IMG/VR virus record: IMGVR_UViG_3300027413_000034
Coordinates: 1 to 22,801 of that record
Origin: a virus
DNA: 22,801 nt
Direction: 5' to 3' (one strand)
The translations under genes and the position numbers were made by a program. The notes below the pieces were generated by a model. It was not told where the DNA came from, did not search any database, and was given only the letters and a program-made list of their open reading frames with translations. Below, piece after piece: positions 1,779 through 9,905 of the stretch. Position 1 is the first letter of the stretch. Each line of letters starts with the position of its first letter.

Positions 1779-4700
1779 CTATGCAAAAGTTACTTCAACA
1801 GTGCGAATGTTAGCTACCCAACGAATGTTGTGGCTTGCTTCACCTGTTGCTGTAATTAACAAAGCGTTGTTTGTGTTGTCGGCAGACAAAGCTACCCCCC
1901 AGTTTGAAGTGTTAGAAATTGCTGTGATTACACTATTCGCAAGGGTAGTAGTCCCCCCGTCATTGACTAAAAGCCCCTTAACTTCCCAGCTACCGTAGCT
2001 TTGTGCGCCGTTTTGCATTGCAACAACTATACCATTAAATGTTATGCAAGTGTCAGTCGCCGCTGTGATCGCATAAACGGGTTGAAGGCTTGCCCCACCT
2101 GCAGTTAGGGGGAGGGGAGTTGCACCGGTAGTGGCTAACTGTAAAACATATTCACCGCCTTGGGCGTCACCACCAGCTGCAAATTTACCCGATGCGTGTG
2201 TTCTACAACCCCATGTAGAAGATAGACCATAACGTCCATGAACAAGAGAATATGCTGCCGATGCAGTGTTTTCACCGCCTAATGCTGCGGCTCCGCCGTT
2301 TGTTACAGAATTGTTGTAACCATACGCAAAACTGTAAGTACCTGATATGTCGTTGCTCTGGCCACCTGCTATGGTACTATAATCCCCTGTTATAATGTTG
2401 TCTCTGCCGCCTGCTATAGCACTATAAGACCCTGCACTCGTAATATCATTATCCCTGCCACCAGATATATTGCTAGAATATCCCTCAACATCATTCTGGA
2501 AACCAAGACTAACAGAGTAAGCGCCATTTGCATCAGCGGCAGACCCAGACGTTATAGAACTTTGTCCCCCTGCTTGTGAGTACCTACCTAGTGCAATCGA
2601 ATTTGGACCAAGCGCCCCATAAGTAGCACTACTGGATTCGCCACCTGCTGCAAAACTATCTGTACCACTAGCGTAAGATTGCCCAAACGCCATTGATCTC
2701 AATCCTGTCGCTGTTGCAGTCTTTCCTATTGCTACAGATTTACCACCACTTGCTACAGCAGCCTCACCTATAGCTATAGCGTTTGATCCAGTAGCAGAGG
2801 GTTGTGCGGAAGGGCTATTTTCATTACCTGCATAAAGAGGAGCACCTGAAGCAGCTTCTGCCCAAGTAAGTCCTCCTGTGTTTCCACTTTGAGCAGTTAA
2901 CACATAACCGTTAGTAGGGGTGTTAGAAATTTTAAGGTTGTCTTCGTCAACTACGTTGGAAGCAATAACAGTTGCACCATCCGCTGTAGAAGTAACTTCA
3001 CCACTGTGATTAGGATGTACATAGTTGTTAGCAGAAGAAGCAATACCGTCTAGCTTGGTTCCGTCTGCAGAAACATCTCTACCATCTACAGTAAACGACC
3101 CTGTTAAAAGGTTTCCTCCTAGTTCTGGTGACTGGTCAGTAGAAAGTTCTACTACTCCGCTAGTAAGAACCCCAGCAGAGGTAAACTTTTGTATTTCTAG
3201 TAAGTCACCTACTGCTGCGCCTGTTGCTAAAACAACAGAAGTCCCGTTAGTAGCAGTATAGTCTGCGTCTTGTAGTTTTACCCCATTCAAAAATACTAGT
3301 ATAGTATTAGGAGAGTAAGTAGTTGTAAAGGTAGTTTGTCCGGCTGTAGCAGTAAACTCCGCATCTGTCATAACAGCGTAGTCTAAGGCTGTAGCTGCAA
3401 CCCAAGAACTACCATTCCAAACCCGCAGGTTTCCTGCAGTACTATTGAAGTACAAAGAGCCTGTTATTAAAGCATCCCCGTCATTATCTACAGTAGGATC
3501 ACTTGACTTAGCACCTAAGTAGCGATCATCAAAAGAATCATAAAGAGTCGCAGTGTTTGTAGCACTAGTGGCTGCATTAGTAGCAGAAGTTCCAGCGTTA
3601 GTAGCAGAGGTAGCAGCGGCAGTTGCACTGGTAGACGCAGCGGTTGCCTGAGTCGTAGCCGTTGAAGCGGAAGTAGCAGCGTTAGTTGCGCTTGTTGCTG
3701 CATTAGTTTCAGAACTACCTATGTTACTTAAGGAAGTTGCAGCAGCGGTTGCGCTAGTGGCGGCGGCTGAAGCGGAAGTACTCGCATTACCTTCGCTAGT
3801 AGCGGCGGTAGTAGCAGAACCACTTGCAGAAGTAGCACTAGTCGCGGCGGCGGTTGCACTAGTAGCAGCGTTAGTAGCACTAGTAGAAGCGTTAGTAGCA
3901 CTAGTCGCGGCAGCAGTTTCGGAAGCAGCTGCGTTGGTTTCAGAGCTACCGATGTTACTTAGAGAAGTTGCAGCGTTAGTAGCACTAGTAGCAGCGTTGG
4001 TTTCCGAGGTTGCAGCGTTAGTCGCGCTAGTAGCGGCATTAGTGGCAGAAGTGAGTGCCTGATTTGCCTTGGTGTTAGCCGTAGCCGCACTTCCAGCGGC
4101 GGCAGTAGCACTGCTTGCAGCTTGACTTGCAGAAGTTGCTGCACTGGCACTAGGAGCTTCCCACGCACTGCCATTAAAAAACTTTAGTACGTTGGTAGTA
4201 GTGTTAAAGTAAATATCACCAACAGTAAGGGCGTCTCCGTCATTGTCTACAGTAGGATCAGTACTGTAAGCACCTAAGTAGGTGTCATCAAAGTTATCAA
4301 ACAAAGTTTGAGCGCTTGCTAAGGCAGTGTTAGCGCCAGTAGCACTAGTCGCGGCGGCGTTTTCAGAAAGAAGAGCAGCAGCGGCACTTGCAGAAGAAGC
4401 TGTAGCACTAGTAGCAGCGGCAGTTGCGCTATTGTAAGCGGCGGTATAAGAACCAGCTGCATTGGTCTCTGCTGATTCTGCTGCATTTTTAGCAGTTGTA
4501 GCACTGGTTGCAGAGTTTGTAGCAGAAGTAGCACTAGTAGCTGCGCTGGTTTCTGAACTAGCGGCGTTATTTTCCGAAGTAGAGGCATTACTAGCAGAGG
4601 TGCTAGCAGAACTTTCCGAAGCCAAAGCAGCGGCGGCAGAGACAACTGCTGAAGCCTTTTCTTGTCCAGCTAAAGTAGCCTGTTGCGCAGCAGTTACAGC

Positions 4701-5156
4701 AGAAGCTGCGGCGGTAGTTGCAGAGCTAGTAGCAGAGTTTTTAGAAGACAGTGCGGAGGCTTCCGAAGTAGAGGCATTACTAGCACTGGTAGCGGCCTCT
4801 GCTGCAGGATACTCCCAAGAAGTGCCGTTATAAACCCCTAGCTCAGAAGTAGTAGTGTTAAAAAATAAAGCGCCAGTTGTGCCAGAAGGTTCAGTTGCTA
4901 AAGACCCTAAGTATTTTGTACCAAAGTCAGTTAGTTGATTTACTAACGCTGAACCACCAAGATTCACAGTGCTAAGAGTATTACCCGCGCCATCAACAAT
5001 AGTAACAATAGTGTCATTATTGGAGTCGAGGACAATAGAAGATATAGAATCTCCTTTAGCTCCTTGTGAACCAGTTCTTGAAAGGGTCAATGCTACGCTG
5101 TTGGAAGTTGCATTCAAGTTTACGTTGTTAGCAGAAACAGTAGTAGTATAAGCCAT
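1779..5156 (-). CDS. modular tail fibre with YadA-like head
   Basis: This 1125-residue protein is the likely receptor-binding fibre. The N-terminus (1-70) carries a short collagen-like GSQGAKGD stretch. Three copies of a module with consensus YLG-x3-(S/T)-(D/E)-P...GDIYFNTTT...NGSAW occupy about 78-117, 289-335 and 542-588. They are separated by Ala/Ser/Thr/Asn-rich heptad-like tracts (118-283 and 336-537), probably trimeric coiled coil stalks. A domain at 596-660 contains LVFLNGVKLQDADYTATNGT, common in marine phage fibres. Residues about 785-985 carry YadA/trimeric-autotransporter head repeats such as SNAIAIGEAA, KSVAIGKTA and NSIALGRYS. A beta-rich C-terminus (1027-1125) probably forms the tip or trimerisation unit. 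It starts three bases after the upstream stop codon and appears intact. The fold assignments are motif-based; the receptor role is inferred. Confidence 0.92.
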   Translation of the reverse strand: MAYTTTVSANNVNLNATSNSVALTLSRTGSQGAKGDSISSIVLDSNNDTIVTIVDGAGNTLSTVNLGGSALVNQLTDFGTKYLGSLATEPSGTTGALFFNTTTSELGVYNGTSWEYPAAEAATSASNASTSEASALSSKNSATSSATTAAASAVTAAQQATLAGQEKASAVVSAAAALASESSASTSASNASTSENNAASSETSAATSATSATNSATSATTAKNAAESAETNAAGSYTAAYNSATAAATSATASSASAAAALLSENAAATSATGANTALASAQTLFDNFDDTYLGAYSTDPTVDNDGDALTVGDIYFNTTTNVLKFFNGSAWEAPSASAATSASQAASSATAAAGSAATANTKANQALTSATNAATSATNAATSETNAATSATNAATSLSNIGSSETNAAASETAAATSATNASTSATNAATSATAAATSATSASGSATTAATSEGNASTSASAAATSATAAATSLSNIGSSETNAATSATNAATSASTATTQATAASTSATAAATSATNAGTSATNAATSATNTATLYDSFDDRYLGAKSSDPTVDNDGDALITGSLYFNSTAGNLRVWNGSSWVAATALDYAVMTDAEFTATAGQTTFTTTYSPNTILVFLNGVKLQDADYTATNGTSVVLATGAAVGDLLEIQKFTSAGVLTSGVVELSTDQSPELGGNLLTGSFTVDGRDVSADGTKLDGIASSANNYVHPNHSGEVTSTADGATVIASNVVDEDNLKISNTPTNGYVLTAQSGNTGGLTWAEAASGAPLYAGNENSPSAQPSATGSNAIAIGEAAVASGGKSVAIGKTATATGLRSMAFGQSYASGTDSFAAGGESSSATYGALGPNSIALGRYSQAGGQSSITSGSAADANGAYSVSLGFQNDVEGYSSNISGGRDNDITSAGSYSAIAGGRDNIITGDYSTIAGGQSNDISGTYSFAYGYNNSVTNGGAAALGGENTASAAYSLVHGRYGLSSTWGCRTHASGKFAAGGDAQGGEYVLQLATTGATPLPLTAGGASLQPVYAITAATDTCITFNGIVVAMQNGAQSYGSWEVKGLLVNDGGTTTLANSVITAISNTSNWGVALSADNTNNALLITATGEASHNIRWVANIRTVEVTFA
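3546..4151 (-). repeat. second A/S/T/N-rich repeat tract within the tail fibre gene
   Basis: This stretch codes for about 200 residues built from a seven-residue unit close to AATSATN, with variants SETNAAT and TAAATSA. A longer 12-residue block, SLSNIGSSETNA, occurs twice. At the DNA level it is a run of imperfect 21-base repeats using GCT, GCA and ACT codons. It also produces long meaningless open frames on the plus strand. It lies between fibre modules 2 and 3 and probably sets stalk length. Confidence 0.85.
4308..4805 (-). repeat. first A/S/T/N-rich repeat tract within the tail fibre gene
   Basis: About 166 codons between fibre modules 1 and 2 encode alanine, serine, threonine and asparagine in a heptad-like pattern (for example SASNASTSENNAASS). 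The pattern is less regular than in the second tract and includes a QQATLAGQEKASA stretch. Such tracts are prone to recombination and length change in phage fibres. Confidence 0.8.
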
Positions 5157-7012: not shown

Positions 7013-8344
7013 TTAAAAGCCGAAGCCTCTTTTTGTTACTTTTGTTCCCGCCCTTACAGGCCAGAGGTACTCTACAGCATACCGTATACCATCTGAGAAG
7101 TGTTCTACACCGTCCTTCTTACAGATAGTAGCAGTATTGGGGTTGCCATCAACCCACACAGTCCTTTCCATAGACTGTATGACGTTAGTGCAACGAGGGT
7201 GAACATAGATATCTATAGTACCCTTAGCGTTTTCTAACTTCTTGTTAACAGCAGCCACCGAGTCCACTATGGGGGGAGCCTTGTTATGTGATCGTAGTTG
7301 TATACCGTGGGATAGCAAGATACTAAAGTCGGTAACGCCCACAGCAGCAGAGGTCTTTCGAGCCTTCCCTGCAGGGTCAGGATAACCGATAATCTTGTGT
7401 CCTTTGTATTTAGCCACTAGTGATTGAGCCAACGTCTCTGTGTCTGGATGTCCTATACTTTCAGCAAGTATGTGCATTTGACCACCCCTAACCGCGAAAA
7501 CGGTTGTAGCCTGTATACCAACGTTAAAGTCGATAGCGCAGTGTACATCTTCATTCTCTTCAAAGTCAGGTAGACTGTTGTCTATGTGCTTCTTTCTATT
7601 AAACATATAAAATACATTATTACCAGAGTCTTCAAAGGAAGCCTCATACTCTCTAGCAAACTTAATAGGGTCTAGTGTAGTCTTAACCCTTTCGATTTCC
7701 GTCTCATCTAGGTACGGCGAATCATGGTAGGTGTAGTGAAAACTCTTCCAGTCATCATCTACATCTTGTCTGTTGTATAACTCCCAAAAGTAATCATATC
7801 CTTTGGGTGTACTAATTATTAATGCTCTTCCTGGGTTAGCACCATAGCGCTCTGCATTCTGTTCACTCCAACGAGTAGTAATACATGGCTGGATAATACT
7901 CTCCCAAGACTCTTTAAAATTCATTCCTGCACCTTTCCAAGAGGTGACCTCGTCTCCTATAACCATGTACTGTCCACTACCCCGCATCCTTTCGGAAGCT
8001 TCGTAGGACCATAGCTTGAGGTTAACGTTTCTAGGGAACCAGAAGTGTCCTGCAGCCCTAGAAGACTTGTCTGCATAACTTTCCATGCCTAACTGATAGG
8101 CTAGTAGCGGAAAGTAAATATCTACTGCTTGCTGATAGGTAGGAGCGATGAGAGCTACGTTTTTGTTAGGAACACTTTCATCAAGCTCCATTAATTCTTG
8201 TACTGCTATCATGGCAGCTGTAGCACCTAAGTAAGACTTACCAAAGCCCCTTGAAGCACACGCTACAGCATACCTACAGTTATTGTCTATAAATAAGGAT
8301 TCAATAACATCGGACTGGCCTTCGTTTAATACTATCTCTTGCAC
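7013..8344 (-). CDS. terL: terminase large subunit (DNA-packaging ATPase and nuclease)
   Basis: This 443-residue protein is the motor that drives DNA into the prohead and cuts it. The ATPase domain has a Walker A-type loop ASRGFGKS (30-37), an adenine-side segment NVALIAPTYQQA (62-73), Walker B YMVIGDE (126-132) and a coupling motif STPKG (178-182). The RNase H-like nuclease domain has acidic residues in AIDFNVG (D272), YPDPAGKA (D323) and HFSDGIRYAVEYL (D418). Length fits podovirus and siphovirus large terminases. Translation starts at GTG (8344), directly after the stop of the upstream membrane protein gene. The probable small subunit lies 1.2 kb upstream, with four small genes between, recalling the T7 order of small terminase, membrane/lysis genes, then large terminase. 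Confidence 0.97.
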   Translation of the reverse strand: MQEIVLNEGQSDVIESLFIDNNCRYAVACASRGFGKSYLGATAAMIAVQELMELDESVPNKNVALIAPTYQQAVDIYFPLLAYQLGMESYADKSSRAAGHFWFPRNVNLKLWSYEASERMRGSGQYMVIGDEVTSWKGAGMNFKESWESIIQPCITTRWSEQNAERYGANPGRALIISTPKGYDYFWELYNRQDVDDDWKSFHYTYHDSPYLDETEIERVKTTLDPIKFAREYEASFEDSGNNVFYMFNRKKHIDNSLPDFEENEDVHCAIDFNVGIQATTVFAVRGGQMHILAESIGHPDTETLAQSLVAKYKGHKIIGYPDPAGKARKTSAAVGVTDFSILLSHGIQLRSHNKAPPIVDSVAAVNKKLENAKGTIDIYVHPRCTNVIQSMERTVWVDGNPNTATICKKDGVEHFSDGIRYAVEYLWPVRAGTKVTKRGFGF

Positions 8345-8548
8345 TTACTTACTTCCCATGTTAGTTGGAGCATACTGCTCTCCATTGTAAGCAGGATAAG
8401 CTTCTTCTTCAACTCCAGAGTTACAACCAAAAACGACTATGCCTAAAAAGATACAGGCGTAGAGTGTGCCACGTTTCATCCACACCATAAAGCCGTCAAA
8501 AGCAGTTTCTGCCTGTGTTTGCGCAACTGCTTTAACTATGTCACTCAT
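8345..8548 (-). CDS. small membrane protein, possible lipoprotein
   Basis: This 67-residue protein has one hydrophobic segment at about 28-43 and an acidic, Tyr-rich tail. Read from an internal ATG at codon 24, it becomes MKRGTLYACIFLGIVVFGC, a short lipoprotein-like signal ending in a cysteine. That is the layout of an outer spanin, and in T7 spanin genes also lie just before the large terminase. However, phenylalanine at the -2 position is unusual and the internal start has no good ribosome binding site. The full frame begins with ATG overlapping the upstream stop (TAATGA). Membrane location is likely; the lysis role is only a suggestion. Confidence 0.65.
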   Translation of the reverse strand: MSDIVKAVAQTQAETAFDGFMVWMKRGTLYACIFLGIVVFGCNSGVEEEAYPAYNGEQYAPTNMGSK

Positions 8549-8865
8549 TAGTCATGTTCCCCGTTGTTACGCCTACCGTTATAACCGTCAAGGCGTTGGG
8601 ACAGGTTATTAAATACTTGTGGGTTTCTACTAGCAGTGTCAAACGTACCAACTGTTATTGCTATAGCTGCAAGCAAGGCTATGTGTGCTACTGCACTTAA
8701 TGCAAATACAAAGTAACTACCCAAGAGCATACTAAACACAATACACCACATCCATGCGAGTATCTGCAGGATCATGTGTCTTACTGTTGTGTCTGGAATA
8801 TTCTTTAAAGGACTTATACTACAATCCATAACAGAATTCCAAGAATCATATATATGTTGTCTCAT
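8548..8865 (-). CDS. two-TM membrane protein
   Basis: This 105-residue protein has two hydrophobic helices at about 31-49 and 52-76. They are preceded by a polar N-terminus and followed by a hydrophilic Arg/Asn-rich tail (SQRLDGYNGRRNNGEHD). It overlaps both neighbours by one base (TAATG), so it is tightly coupled to the Na/Pi-like gene upstream. Holin-like topology is possible, but size and sequence are not diagnostic. Coupling with the transporter-like gene also allows a partner role. Confidence 0.7.
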   Translation of the reverse strand: MRQHIYDSWNSVMDCSISPLKNIPDTTVRHMILQILAWMWCIVFSMLLGSYFVFALSAVAHIALLAAIAITVGTFDTASRNPQVFNNLSQRLDGYNGRRNNGEHD

Positions 8866-9296
8866 TAACCAACTCTTTCTACATATTTAGCTATTTGATG
8901 TACGAAGGGGAGTAGCCCTATCGCCATTAGTAGGTTTACACCAGTATGAACTACTGCAATCCTTAATGTGTCGTCTTTAGGCATACCATCAGAAACTAAC
9001 AATCCTGCTAGCCAGATAGTACCTGTAGTGCCAAGGTTAGCACCGAGAACTGCCGCAATAGCCGCAGGTAGTGGAACTGCCCCTGAAGCTACCAACGCTA
9101 TAATTGCTGTAGTAGACAGACTAGAACTCTGCCAAGCAAGCGTTAGTACTATAGCACCAAAAAACATATAAATAGGATTGGCTGTAAACCACTCCAAGTG
9201 TTTCATGTTGCCCATAGCTTTCATTCCACCAGAAAACATTTTAAGACCTACGTAAAAGACTACGAGGCCACAAAGAACTTGTACATAATGGGGCAT
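8865..9296 (-). CDS. single-domain Na+/phosphate cotransporter-like membrane protein
   Basis: This 143-residue protein is very hydrophobic. It matches one repeat of the Na/Pi cotransporter family (PF02690, NptA/SLC34 type). It shows a VGLKMFSGGMKAMG helix at 16-29, the signature WQSSSLSTTAIIALVASGAV at 55-74, LGANLGTT at 84-91, and RIAVVHTGVNLLMAIGLLPF at 112-131. In the family, the QSSS motif helps form the Na+ and phosphate sites, and full transporters have two such repeats. Here only one is encoded, so function would need a homodimer, a host partner or a different role. The start ATG follows AAGGA eight bases away. As an auxiliary gene it could raise phosphate uptake in an infected marine host. 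Family assignment is strong; activity is unproven. Confidence 0.85.
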   Translation of the reverse strand: MPHYVQVLCGLVVFYVGLKMFSGGMKAMGNMKHLEWFTANPIYMFFGAIVLTLAWQSSSLSTTAIIALVASGAVPLPAAIAAVLGANLGTTGTIWLAGLLVSDGMPKDDTLRIAVVHTGVNLLMAIGLLPFVHQIAKYVERVG

Positions 9297-9313
9297 AAGG
9301 GTTTCCTTACTTG

Positions 9314-9553
9314 TTATATTGATATATCCAAAATCTTTCCTGCTGGAACATCAGGGGTTATTTTTCCGTGTCTGTCATAGTTACTATTGTGATTGTGAAA
9401 CAACAGCACATCAAGCCTTTCTGCAGGGTCTACTACTCTGAGACTACTTGCGGCTGTTTGTGGTACTTTGACATTCGGGTGATTATTCGGGTGTAGTTTA
9501 GGCATATAAGGGTTAGAATAAAACGTATCTCCATAAGCGTTAACATTAATCAT
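9314..9553 (-). CDS. hypothetical protein between the terminase genes
   Basis: This 79-residue soluble protein is rich in Asn, Pro and His: FYSNPYMPKLHPNNHPN at about 11-27 and VLLFHNHNSNYDRHGKI at about 49-65. It overlaps the end of the putative small terminase gene by eight bases and precedes the Na/Pi-like gene by 17. No family is recognised. The histidine clusters could bind a metal, but that is speculative. Confidence 0.7.
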   Translation of the reverse strand: MINVNAYGDTFYSNPYMPKLHPNNHPNVKVPQTAASSLRVVDPAERLDVLLFHNHNSNYDRHGKITPDVPAGKILDISI

Positions 9554-9905
9554 CCTTACCTCTCCTTGTTAGAGTAATAGCCACAGGTTTCTTTTCTGTA
9601 ATCTCTTGCTCTAGTTTGTCAGGGATCTTCTTATAGCCATACATCATAAGGTTGTTAATCAGTGTGCCTTGTGTTGCAATTAACTGTGCAAAGGCACCGC
9701 CACCGAGTACTTTCTCACCACTATGATGTTTATCTAACTGGGCTTCAATGTAAGTATACTTCTGAACCATCATTTCAATGGGATCAAATTTTAGCTCTTC
9801 AAGCTTCTTGACAGATGCCATAGAATTAATGTTCTTAGAGCCTTTTGGACGACCAGCGCCTTCGCGTTTACCGCCATTTTTATTTTTGCGATTATCTATT
9901 CTCAT
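9546..9905 (-). CDS. putative terminase small subunit
   Basis: This 119-residue protein has a basic N-terminus with the pattern KREGAGRPKGSKN (13-25), which begins many phage small terminases and related DNA-binding proteins. Helical segments follow (SVKKLEELKFDPIEMMVQKY, then AFAQLIATQGTLINNLMMYG), fitting an oligomerising core. Translation starts at ATG after a consensus-strength AAGGAGG site. It is the first soluble gene after the membrane genes of the late module and lies upstream of the large terminase, as in T7 (gp18 before gp19). The role rests on this N-terminal pattern and gene order, not on a firm domain match. Confidence 0.65.
   Translation of the reverse strand: MRIDNRKNKNGGKREGAGRPKGSKNINSMASVKKLEELKFDPIEMMVQKYTYIEAQLDKHHSGEKVLGGGAFAQLIATQGTLINNLMMYGYKKIPDKLEQEITEKKPVAITLTRRGKDD

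Follow-up and report, generated by a model that had tools for sequence, protein, structure and literature searches.

Several families of transporters resemble the phage protein described here. Na+/phosphate cotransporters of the NptA/SLC34 type II (TIGR01013; about 370-650 aa) carry two PF02690 repeats arranged as tandem inverted repeats in one chain, and the YjbB-type proteins (TIGR00704, NF037997; about 550-600 aa) share the PF02690 repeat and have a C-terminal extension. Inverted-repeat transporters are thought to have arisen when the gene of a half-size protein working as an antiparallel dimer was duplicated and fused, and half-size survivors are found in few families. EmrE/SMR, Fluc/CrcB and DUF606 proteins are small single-gene halves of an inverted-repeat fusion; in DUF606, single-gene, gene-pair and fused forms all occur (PMC3962082).

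In phages, PF02690 genes have been described in eight HMO-2011-type subgroup I marine phage genomes and, according to the accessible part of that work, were proposed to aid phosphate uptake (PMC9038755, ISME J 2022). The same part mentions neither the single-repeat size, nor a spread to T4-like or other phages, nor charge balance, nor a second start. Beyond this paper, the portion of the literature reached by our search (most subscription journals lay outside it) held no account of the half size, the breadth across phages, the charge balance or the start architecture. We analysed these four properties starting from one viral stretch of 22,801 nucleotides, hereafter the window.

Results

A single-repeat Na/Pi gene in the window

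The reading frame of the Na/Pi gene is real and begins with its ATG (Table 1). The stop codon TAA gives its last A to the ATG of the downstream 105-aa gene (TAATG overlap), and the RNA fold at the start of the Na/Pi gene is unremarkable.

Table 1. Features of the window around the Na/Pi gene.
Feature	Position	Strand	Basis or remark
Single-repeat Na/Pi cotransporter-domain protein, 143 aa	8865..9296	-	PF02690, alignments, AF2 model
Shine-Dalgarno AAGGAA of the Na/Pi gene	9303..9308	-	Read directly from the sequence
QSSS, residues 56-59, where the helical hairpin (41-55/58-70) breaks	9120..9131	-	Alignment and model
GANLGTT, residues 85-91 (LGANLGTT, 84-91)	9024..9044	-	Alignment
HTGVN, residues 117-121 (HTGVNLL, 117-123)	8934..8948	-	Alignment
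Terminase large subunit	7013..8344	-	PHROG 2, E = 1.3e-35
67-aa single-TM protein	8345..8548	-	Accompanies the Na/Pi and 105-aa genes also in L016 and L018
105-aa two-TM protein, TAATG overlap with the Na/Pi stop	8548..8865	-	Own widespread viral family
79-aa protein, immediately upstream	9314..9553	-	At -1 in 12 close loci; no family match (Pfam, PHROG)
Candidate small terminase, weak	9546..9905	-	Only E = 0.12 to PHROG 18735 (terminase small subunit)

The Pfam profile search gave a significant match to PF02690 (Na_Pi_cotrans; 60 bits, E = 3.4e-16, gathering cut-off 29.1) as a single stretch covering residues 14-120, and the profile matched only once in the whole window record. The sequence-only reading had proposed a PF02690 protein reduced to one repeat, with the motifs QSSS, LGANLGTT and HTGVNLL. 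All three were found where it placed them, and the analysis confirmed that this phage encodes a true PF02690 protein with a single repeat.

When PDB sequences were searched with phmmer, the window protein matched both repeats of SLC34A2a (PDB entry 9z60, E = 2.4e-13). Its scores remained below the cut-offs of the NCBIfam full-length models (far below for the NptA/SLC34 model TIGR01013, 29 bits versus 306; 50.9 versus a curated 210.1 for TIGR00704 and 41.2 versus a curated 50 for NF037997), as expected because the protein is half size. Unlike NptA/SLC34, it has a single repeat in 143 aa and, unlike the YjbB-type proteins, it has neither a second repeat nor a C-terminal domain.

Conserved motifs and predicted fold

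The window protein carries the QSSS and G-N-GTT signature of PF02690. Across 119 aligned phage and cellular repeats, the window among them, S57 and S58 are invariant and Q56 is present in at least 90% of rows; G85, G89 and T90 are likewise invariant, and N87 and T91 reach at least 90%, in the phage rows and in both cellular repeats. H117 and N121 are kept in 30/30 phage rows. In cellular proteins, H is found in 36 and N in 40 of 41 repeats 2, and in 19 and 17, respectively, of 48 repeats 1, so that the phage half-size protein retains a pair of residues often lost from one cellular repeat. The fold unit and the motifs QSSS, GxNxGTT and HxxxN are shared with NptA/SLC34.

The AF2 model based on the shallow phage-only alignment was poor (pLDDT 57.9), and the model built on the deep alignment of the 119 repeats (pLDDT 90.4, pTM 0.82) was used instead. 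It contains helices at residues 3-27, 32-38 (short), 76-101 and 107-142, and a hairpin (41-55/58-70) broken at residues 56-57. We read this predicted fold as three crossings and a re-entrant hairpin; with an odd number of crossings, it would satisfy the condition for an inverted repeat. Foldseek and VIA-align searches of the PDB and BFVD gave nothing significant; the SLC34 entries from the sequence search were absent, and this outcome has no bearing on family membership.

A widespread family of single-repeat phage genes

The half-size Na/Pi gene is highly conserved and common to many uncultured phages. At least 367 relatives were recovered in IMG/VR with one pattern set and 579 with another, and a second clade (clade 2) was found via the locus L083. 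Thirty members of clade 1 are 74-94% identical to the window protein; QSSS, GAN-GTTGTIW and other positions are invariant among them, as are most of the hairpin and of the GANxGTTGTIWLAG segment. All the phage copies that we fetched (215/215) are single-repeat, with one copy per locus. Among large viral records (33-110 kb), the 22 that carry the gene each had exactly one PF02690 match, bearing in mind that these records are possibly incomplete and that the hosts may have homologues. The median pairwise dN/dS among phage copies was about 0.1. The number of relatives, this ratio and the invariant motifs put the gene well beyond chance. INPHARED phages contained no close relative, the best match (E = 4e-3) being in unannotated records.

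Two trivial explanations were rejected. The low dN/dS and the single-repeat state of every fetched copy rule out a truncated pseudogene. Host contamination is ruled out by the hundreds of viral contigs that carry the gene, and the half-size copies assigned to MAG bins (L082 and L083) share genes with viral contigs.

Cellular relatives and phylogeny

The cellular homologues are two-repeat proteins of about 350-730 aa. Among the best 80 genome matches, two domains were detected in 74 proteins, the remainder lying mostly at contig edges; the only half-size forms among these 80 were L082 and L083. In a survey of evenly drawn Pseudomonadota (299) and Bacteroidota (198) genomes, 121 matched, and all open frames were 369-709 aa long except for the contig-end fragments of one genome. 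Two-repeat relatives were present in 64/299 Pseudomonadota genomes at E <= 1e-6. No half-size form was thus found among the cellular Na/Pi (SLC34) relatives searched, and since the surveyed cellular forms are two-repeat, the half-size form is phage-specific within this sample.

Phage and cellular repeats share about 23-35% identity. In the maximum-likelihood tree of the 119 repeats, the phage rows all grouped in a single long-branched clade (100/100), which lay outside repeats 1 and 2 of both cellular types and was weakly sister to the YjbB-type repeat 1 (93/84). The phage gene is thus not a modern gene that was recently truncated. As the tree is unrooted and the branch long, the phage lineage could be either an ancient single-repeat line or a fast-evolved repeat 1.

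Charge balance

The K+R bias compares the numbers of Lys and Arg residues on either side of the membrane in the modelled topology. The window protein has a bias of -2 (-3 with K19 counted; counting K19 lowers all values by about 1), and 69 single-start phage genes ranged from -3 to +1, values that were stable to the choice of loop boundaries. In cellular proteins, repeats 1 and 2 had opposite signs in 38/41 cases, with extremes of -10 and +7. Inverted repeats should behave in this way, and these proteins thus serve as an internal control. Published dual-topology proteins lie between -2 and +1 (EmrE at -2) and antiparallel pairs at +/-6-7 (PMC3962082). By this yardstick, the window protein has the near-zero bias of the dual-topology half-transporter class (EmrE/Fluc-like). 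Its value of -2 is suggestive only: it points to dual topology, yet could also be that of a weakly N-out protein.

A second start in extended relatives

The window gene exists as a short form only. A basic N-terminal extension, with 4-9 Lys/Arg ahead of TM1, was found in 69 distinct relatives. At the position corresponding to the start of the short genes, these relatives keep an internal start codon (ATG in 67, TTG in 2); in L349-L351, the internal ATG is shifted by one codon and still present. Pairing with the anti-Shine-Dalgarno sequence before the internal start averaged -5.47 kcal/mol. The 982 in-frame ATGs elsewhere gave -3.06, and resampling of synonymous codons gave -2.78 +/- 0.18, at the lowest -3.33. 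The extension, of which there are two unlike sequences, is itself coding (pN/pS 0.15 in clade 2 and 0.36 in the other group). At the upstream start, a Shine-Dalgarno is usually absent and a TATA-like motif lies just before about half of the starts. The predicted bias is +3 to +6 for the long isoform and -3 to -1 for the short one. Judging from this architecture, one extended gene could make an N-in long form together with a short form; the conserved internal start could also be a relic or have another purpose.

Genomic context

The Na/Pi gene was found in unrelated phage backbones. It is terminase-adjacent in the group of the window, stands beside ThyX, integrase, primase and DnaB-type helicase genes in HMO-2011-like phages (our loci with ThyX and DnaB-type helicase genes carry a PF02690 gene like that of the described HMO-2011-type phages), beside gp23, PolB or gp33/gp59/gp32 in T4-like phages, and beside portal-like and Mu-F-type head genes in other backbones. 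The neighbours of the window gene are as initially described, with a clear terminase large subunit (E = 1.3e-35) and a weak candidate for the small one (E = 0.12). This packaging-module location characterises the phage group of the window, not the family.

The window terminase is 67% identical to that of the Naomviridae phages DSS3_VP1 and DSS3_PM1, and the polymerase 49% identical; from this likeness we guess a roseobacter-type host. In DSS3_PM1, an isolated relative of the window's phage, the large terminase gene is followed by one whose product bears the annotation phosphate starvation-inducible protein (L203, DSS3PM1_00046-00047).

The 105-aa two-TM protein belongs to a family with at least 586 viral relatives (window and L204-L279) whose C-terminal tail is conserved and reads YNGRRNNGEHD in the close ones, and the Methylophilales (OM43) phage Melnitz has a homologue with 54% identity. 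It accompanies the Na/Pi gene in 17-18 of about 120 clade-1 loci and in 0/80 clade-2 loci; conversely, the Na/Pi gene is absent from the fetched flank in 61 of the 76 loci with this partner. The Pfam search found no PF02690 similarity in it. The coupling of the two proteins, noted from the window sequence, is thus not general, and the two-TM protein is ruled out as an obligate partner. The Na/Pi, 105-aa and 67-aa genes have nevertheless moved jointly as a cassette to L016 and L018, between terminase and replication contexts. The 67-aa protein has a possible lipobox, VVFGC (window 8345-8548; L016:2340-2543; L018:7276-7488).

In clade 2, the Na/Pi gene is often near phosphoribosyltransferase, PnrA-like binding protein or IMPDH/GMP reductase genes; the loci with phosphoribosyltransferase, PnrA-like (Bmp) or IMPDH/GMP reductase neighbours (L294, L296, L316, L317, L338, L339, L346 and L348) may represent a purine-salvage island. 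About 20 clade-2 loci (L282, L285, L300, L313-L315, L344 and others) have, on the opposite strand beside Na/Pi, a gene for a class II (D/K/N) tRNA-synthetase-like protein of about 290 aa (PF00152, E = 3.3e-21). In T4-like loci (L289, L290, L291, L295, L297, L328-L331 and L354), an IscU/NifU-like gene (PF01592, E = 9.4e-52) and a gp33-like late-transcription regulator are followed by Na/Pi, upstream of gp59 and gp32.

Some other genes deserve mention. Directly downstream of Na/Pi in L169 (6103-10461), a protein of 1452 aa combines a PF04233 Mu-F-type head domain near its N-terminus (E = 9.6e-16) with a PF00940 phage RNA polymerase domain at its C-terminus (E = 6.1e-8); its family, present in nine loci (e.g., L037, L039, L041 and L046), may be a fusion of a head protein and a virion RNA polymerase. 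The window itself encodes a tail fibre of 1125 aa (1779-5156; PHROG tail fibre, E = 1.5e-83) with Ala/Ser/Thr/Asn repeats and, by eye, YadA-head-like repeats toward the C-terminus. A protein of 208 aa with a MAM adhesion domain (32-658; PF00629, E = 4.5e-6) adjoins the tail fibre genes.

Discussion

A proposed antiparallel half-transporter

The reading that we favour, with a probability of about 50%, is that of a phage-specific single-repeat Na+/phosphate cotransporter acting as an antiparallel dimer. Each chain of 143 aa would form one inverted-repeat unit, in which a TM helix and a short interfacial helix are followed by the re-entrant hairpin, with its break at QSSS, and by two further TM helices. 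Oppositely oriented chains would pair to give a whole inverted-repeat transporter, an assembly not known from cellular members of this family, in which the two QSSS hairpins and the GANLGTT helices would build the Na+/Pi site as repeats 1 and 2 do in NptA/SLC34. Because it is charge-balanced, the window product could insert both ways; in extended relatives, the long product of the first start would be N-in, and the short product of the second would prefer the opposite orientation. Such a pump would supply the infected cell with Pi from outside, to be used in the synthesis of phage DNA.

The suggestion that the protein may dimerise like the ancestral half-transporter thus gained indirect support from the balanced charge, the single copy and the opposite-bias isoforms of the relatives; the dimer itself stays a prediction. 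More tentatively, the phage-only clade might reach both orientations either by charge-balanced dual topology, as in the window, or by two starts in one gene, so that a single gene would supply both antiparallel halves. The phage protein resembles EmrE/SMR, Fluc/CrcB and DUF606 in being a small single-gene half, and has a K+R bias of -2, as in EmrE. It differs from them in that the fold is unrelated, its dual topology is predicted, and in the extended relatives a single gene with two starts would do the work of a gene pair.

The chain might alternatively keep a fixed orientation and form a parallel homo-oligomer, a channel or a transporter of another ion or oxyanion using the site chemistry differently. 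The basic residues before TM1 of the extended relatives should hold the N-terminus inside if the long form alone were made, and these phages have hardly any further phosphate genes: PstS was found in 0/26 phage records and PhoH in 1/26, and no Pho-box enrichment was found. The proposed tie to other phage phosphate genes was accordingly not upheld, and the phosphate role rests on family membership. A parallel arrangement is nonetheless rather unlikely, as the single repeat retains all the motifs that both repeats contribute in two-repeat members and the extended genes keep a second start that drops the basic segment. A heteromeric transporter made with the downstream two-TM protein, which the TAATG overlap and the joint transfer with the 67-aa gene could suggest, has very little credibility: this partner is missing from clade 2, occurs in a minority of clade-1 loci, is mostly found without Na/Pi and lacks PF02690 similarity.

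Two further readings are weaker than the antiparallel dimer. A half-subunit could insert into, stand in for part of, or regulate a host Na/Pi transporter, as some Pseudomonadota have two-repeat relatives and the nearest, weakly supported neighbour of the phage protein is the YjbB-type repeat 1. However, most sampled potential hosts had no match at E <= 1e-6, the phage rows form their own long-branched clade apart from the two cellular repeats, and the gene is kept in unrelated backbones whose hosts are probably different. These data, together with the strictly kept site motifs, disfavour the plugging into a host transporter that had been put forward, and we regard it as improbable. We likewise give slight credence to a co-opted holin or membrane-depolarising lysis protein, although this is a small membrane protein close to the packaging and lysis region, with a T7-like place beside the terminase in the window, the dual start and basic N-terminus of the relatives recall lambda S107/S105, and in 17/200 loci an endolysin gene (GH108 or M15) is at most four genes away. 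Neither endolysin cluster is near in the other 183/200; the neighbours are replication genes, ThyX, PolB, gp59/gp32, phosphoribosyltransferase, PnrA-like and IMPDH-like genes. Holins evolve fast, unlike the nearly invariant ion-site motifs seen here, and a PHROG lysis family match is absent, although holins are often missed by such searches.

Implications

If the phage-only clade does reach both orientations in these two ways, it would be an extant, half-size equivalent of the SLC34 fold as it presumably was before fusion. An abundant phage family with all the site motifs in one repeat would make the question of a half-size origin testable for a medically important fold, and the internal start suggests how subunits of opposite orientation could come from a single gene. 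If phosphate is moved, the gene would be a compact and widespread nutrient-uptake gene given by phages to the cells that they infect.
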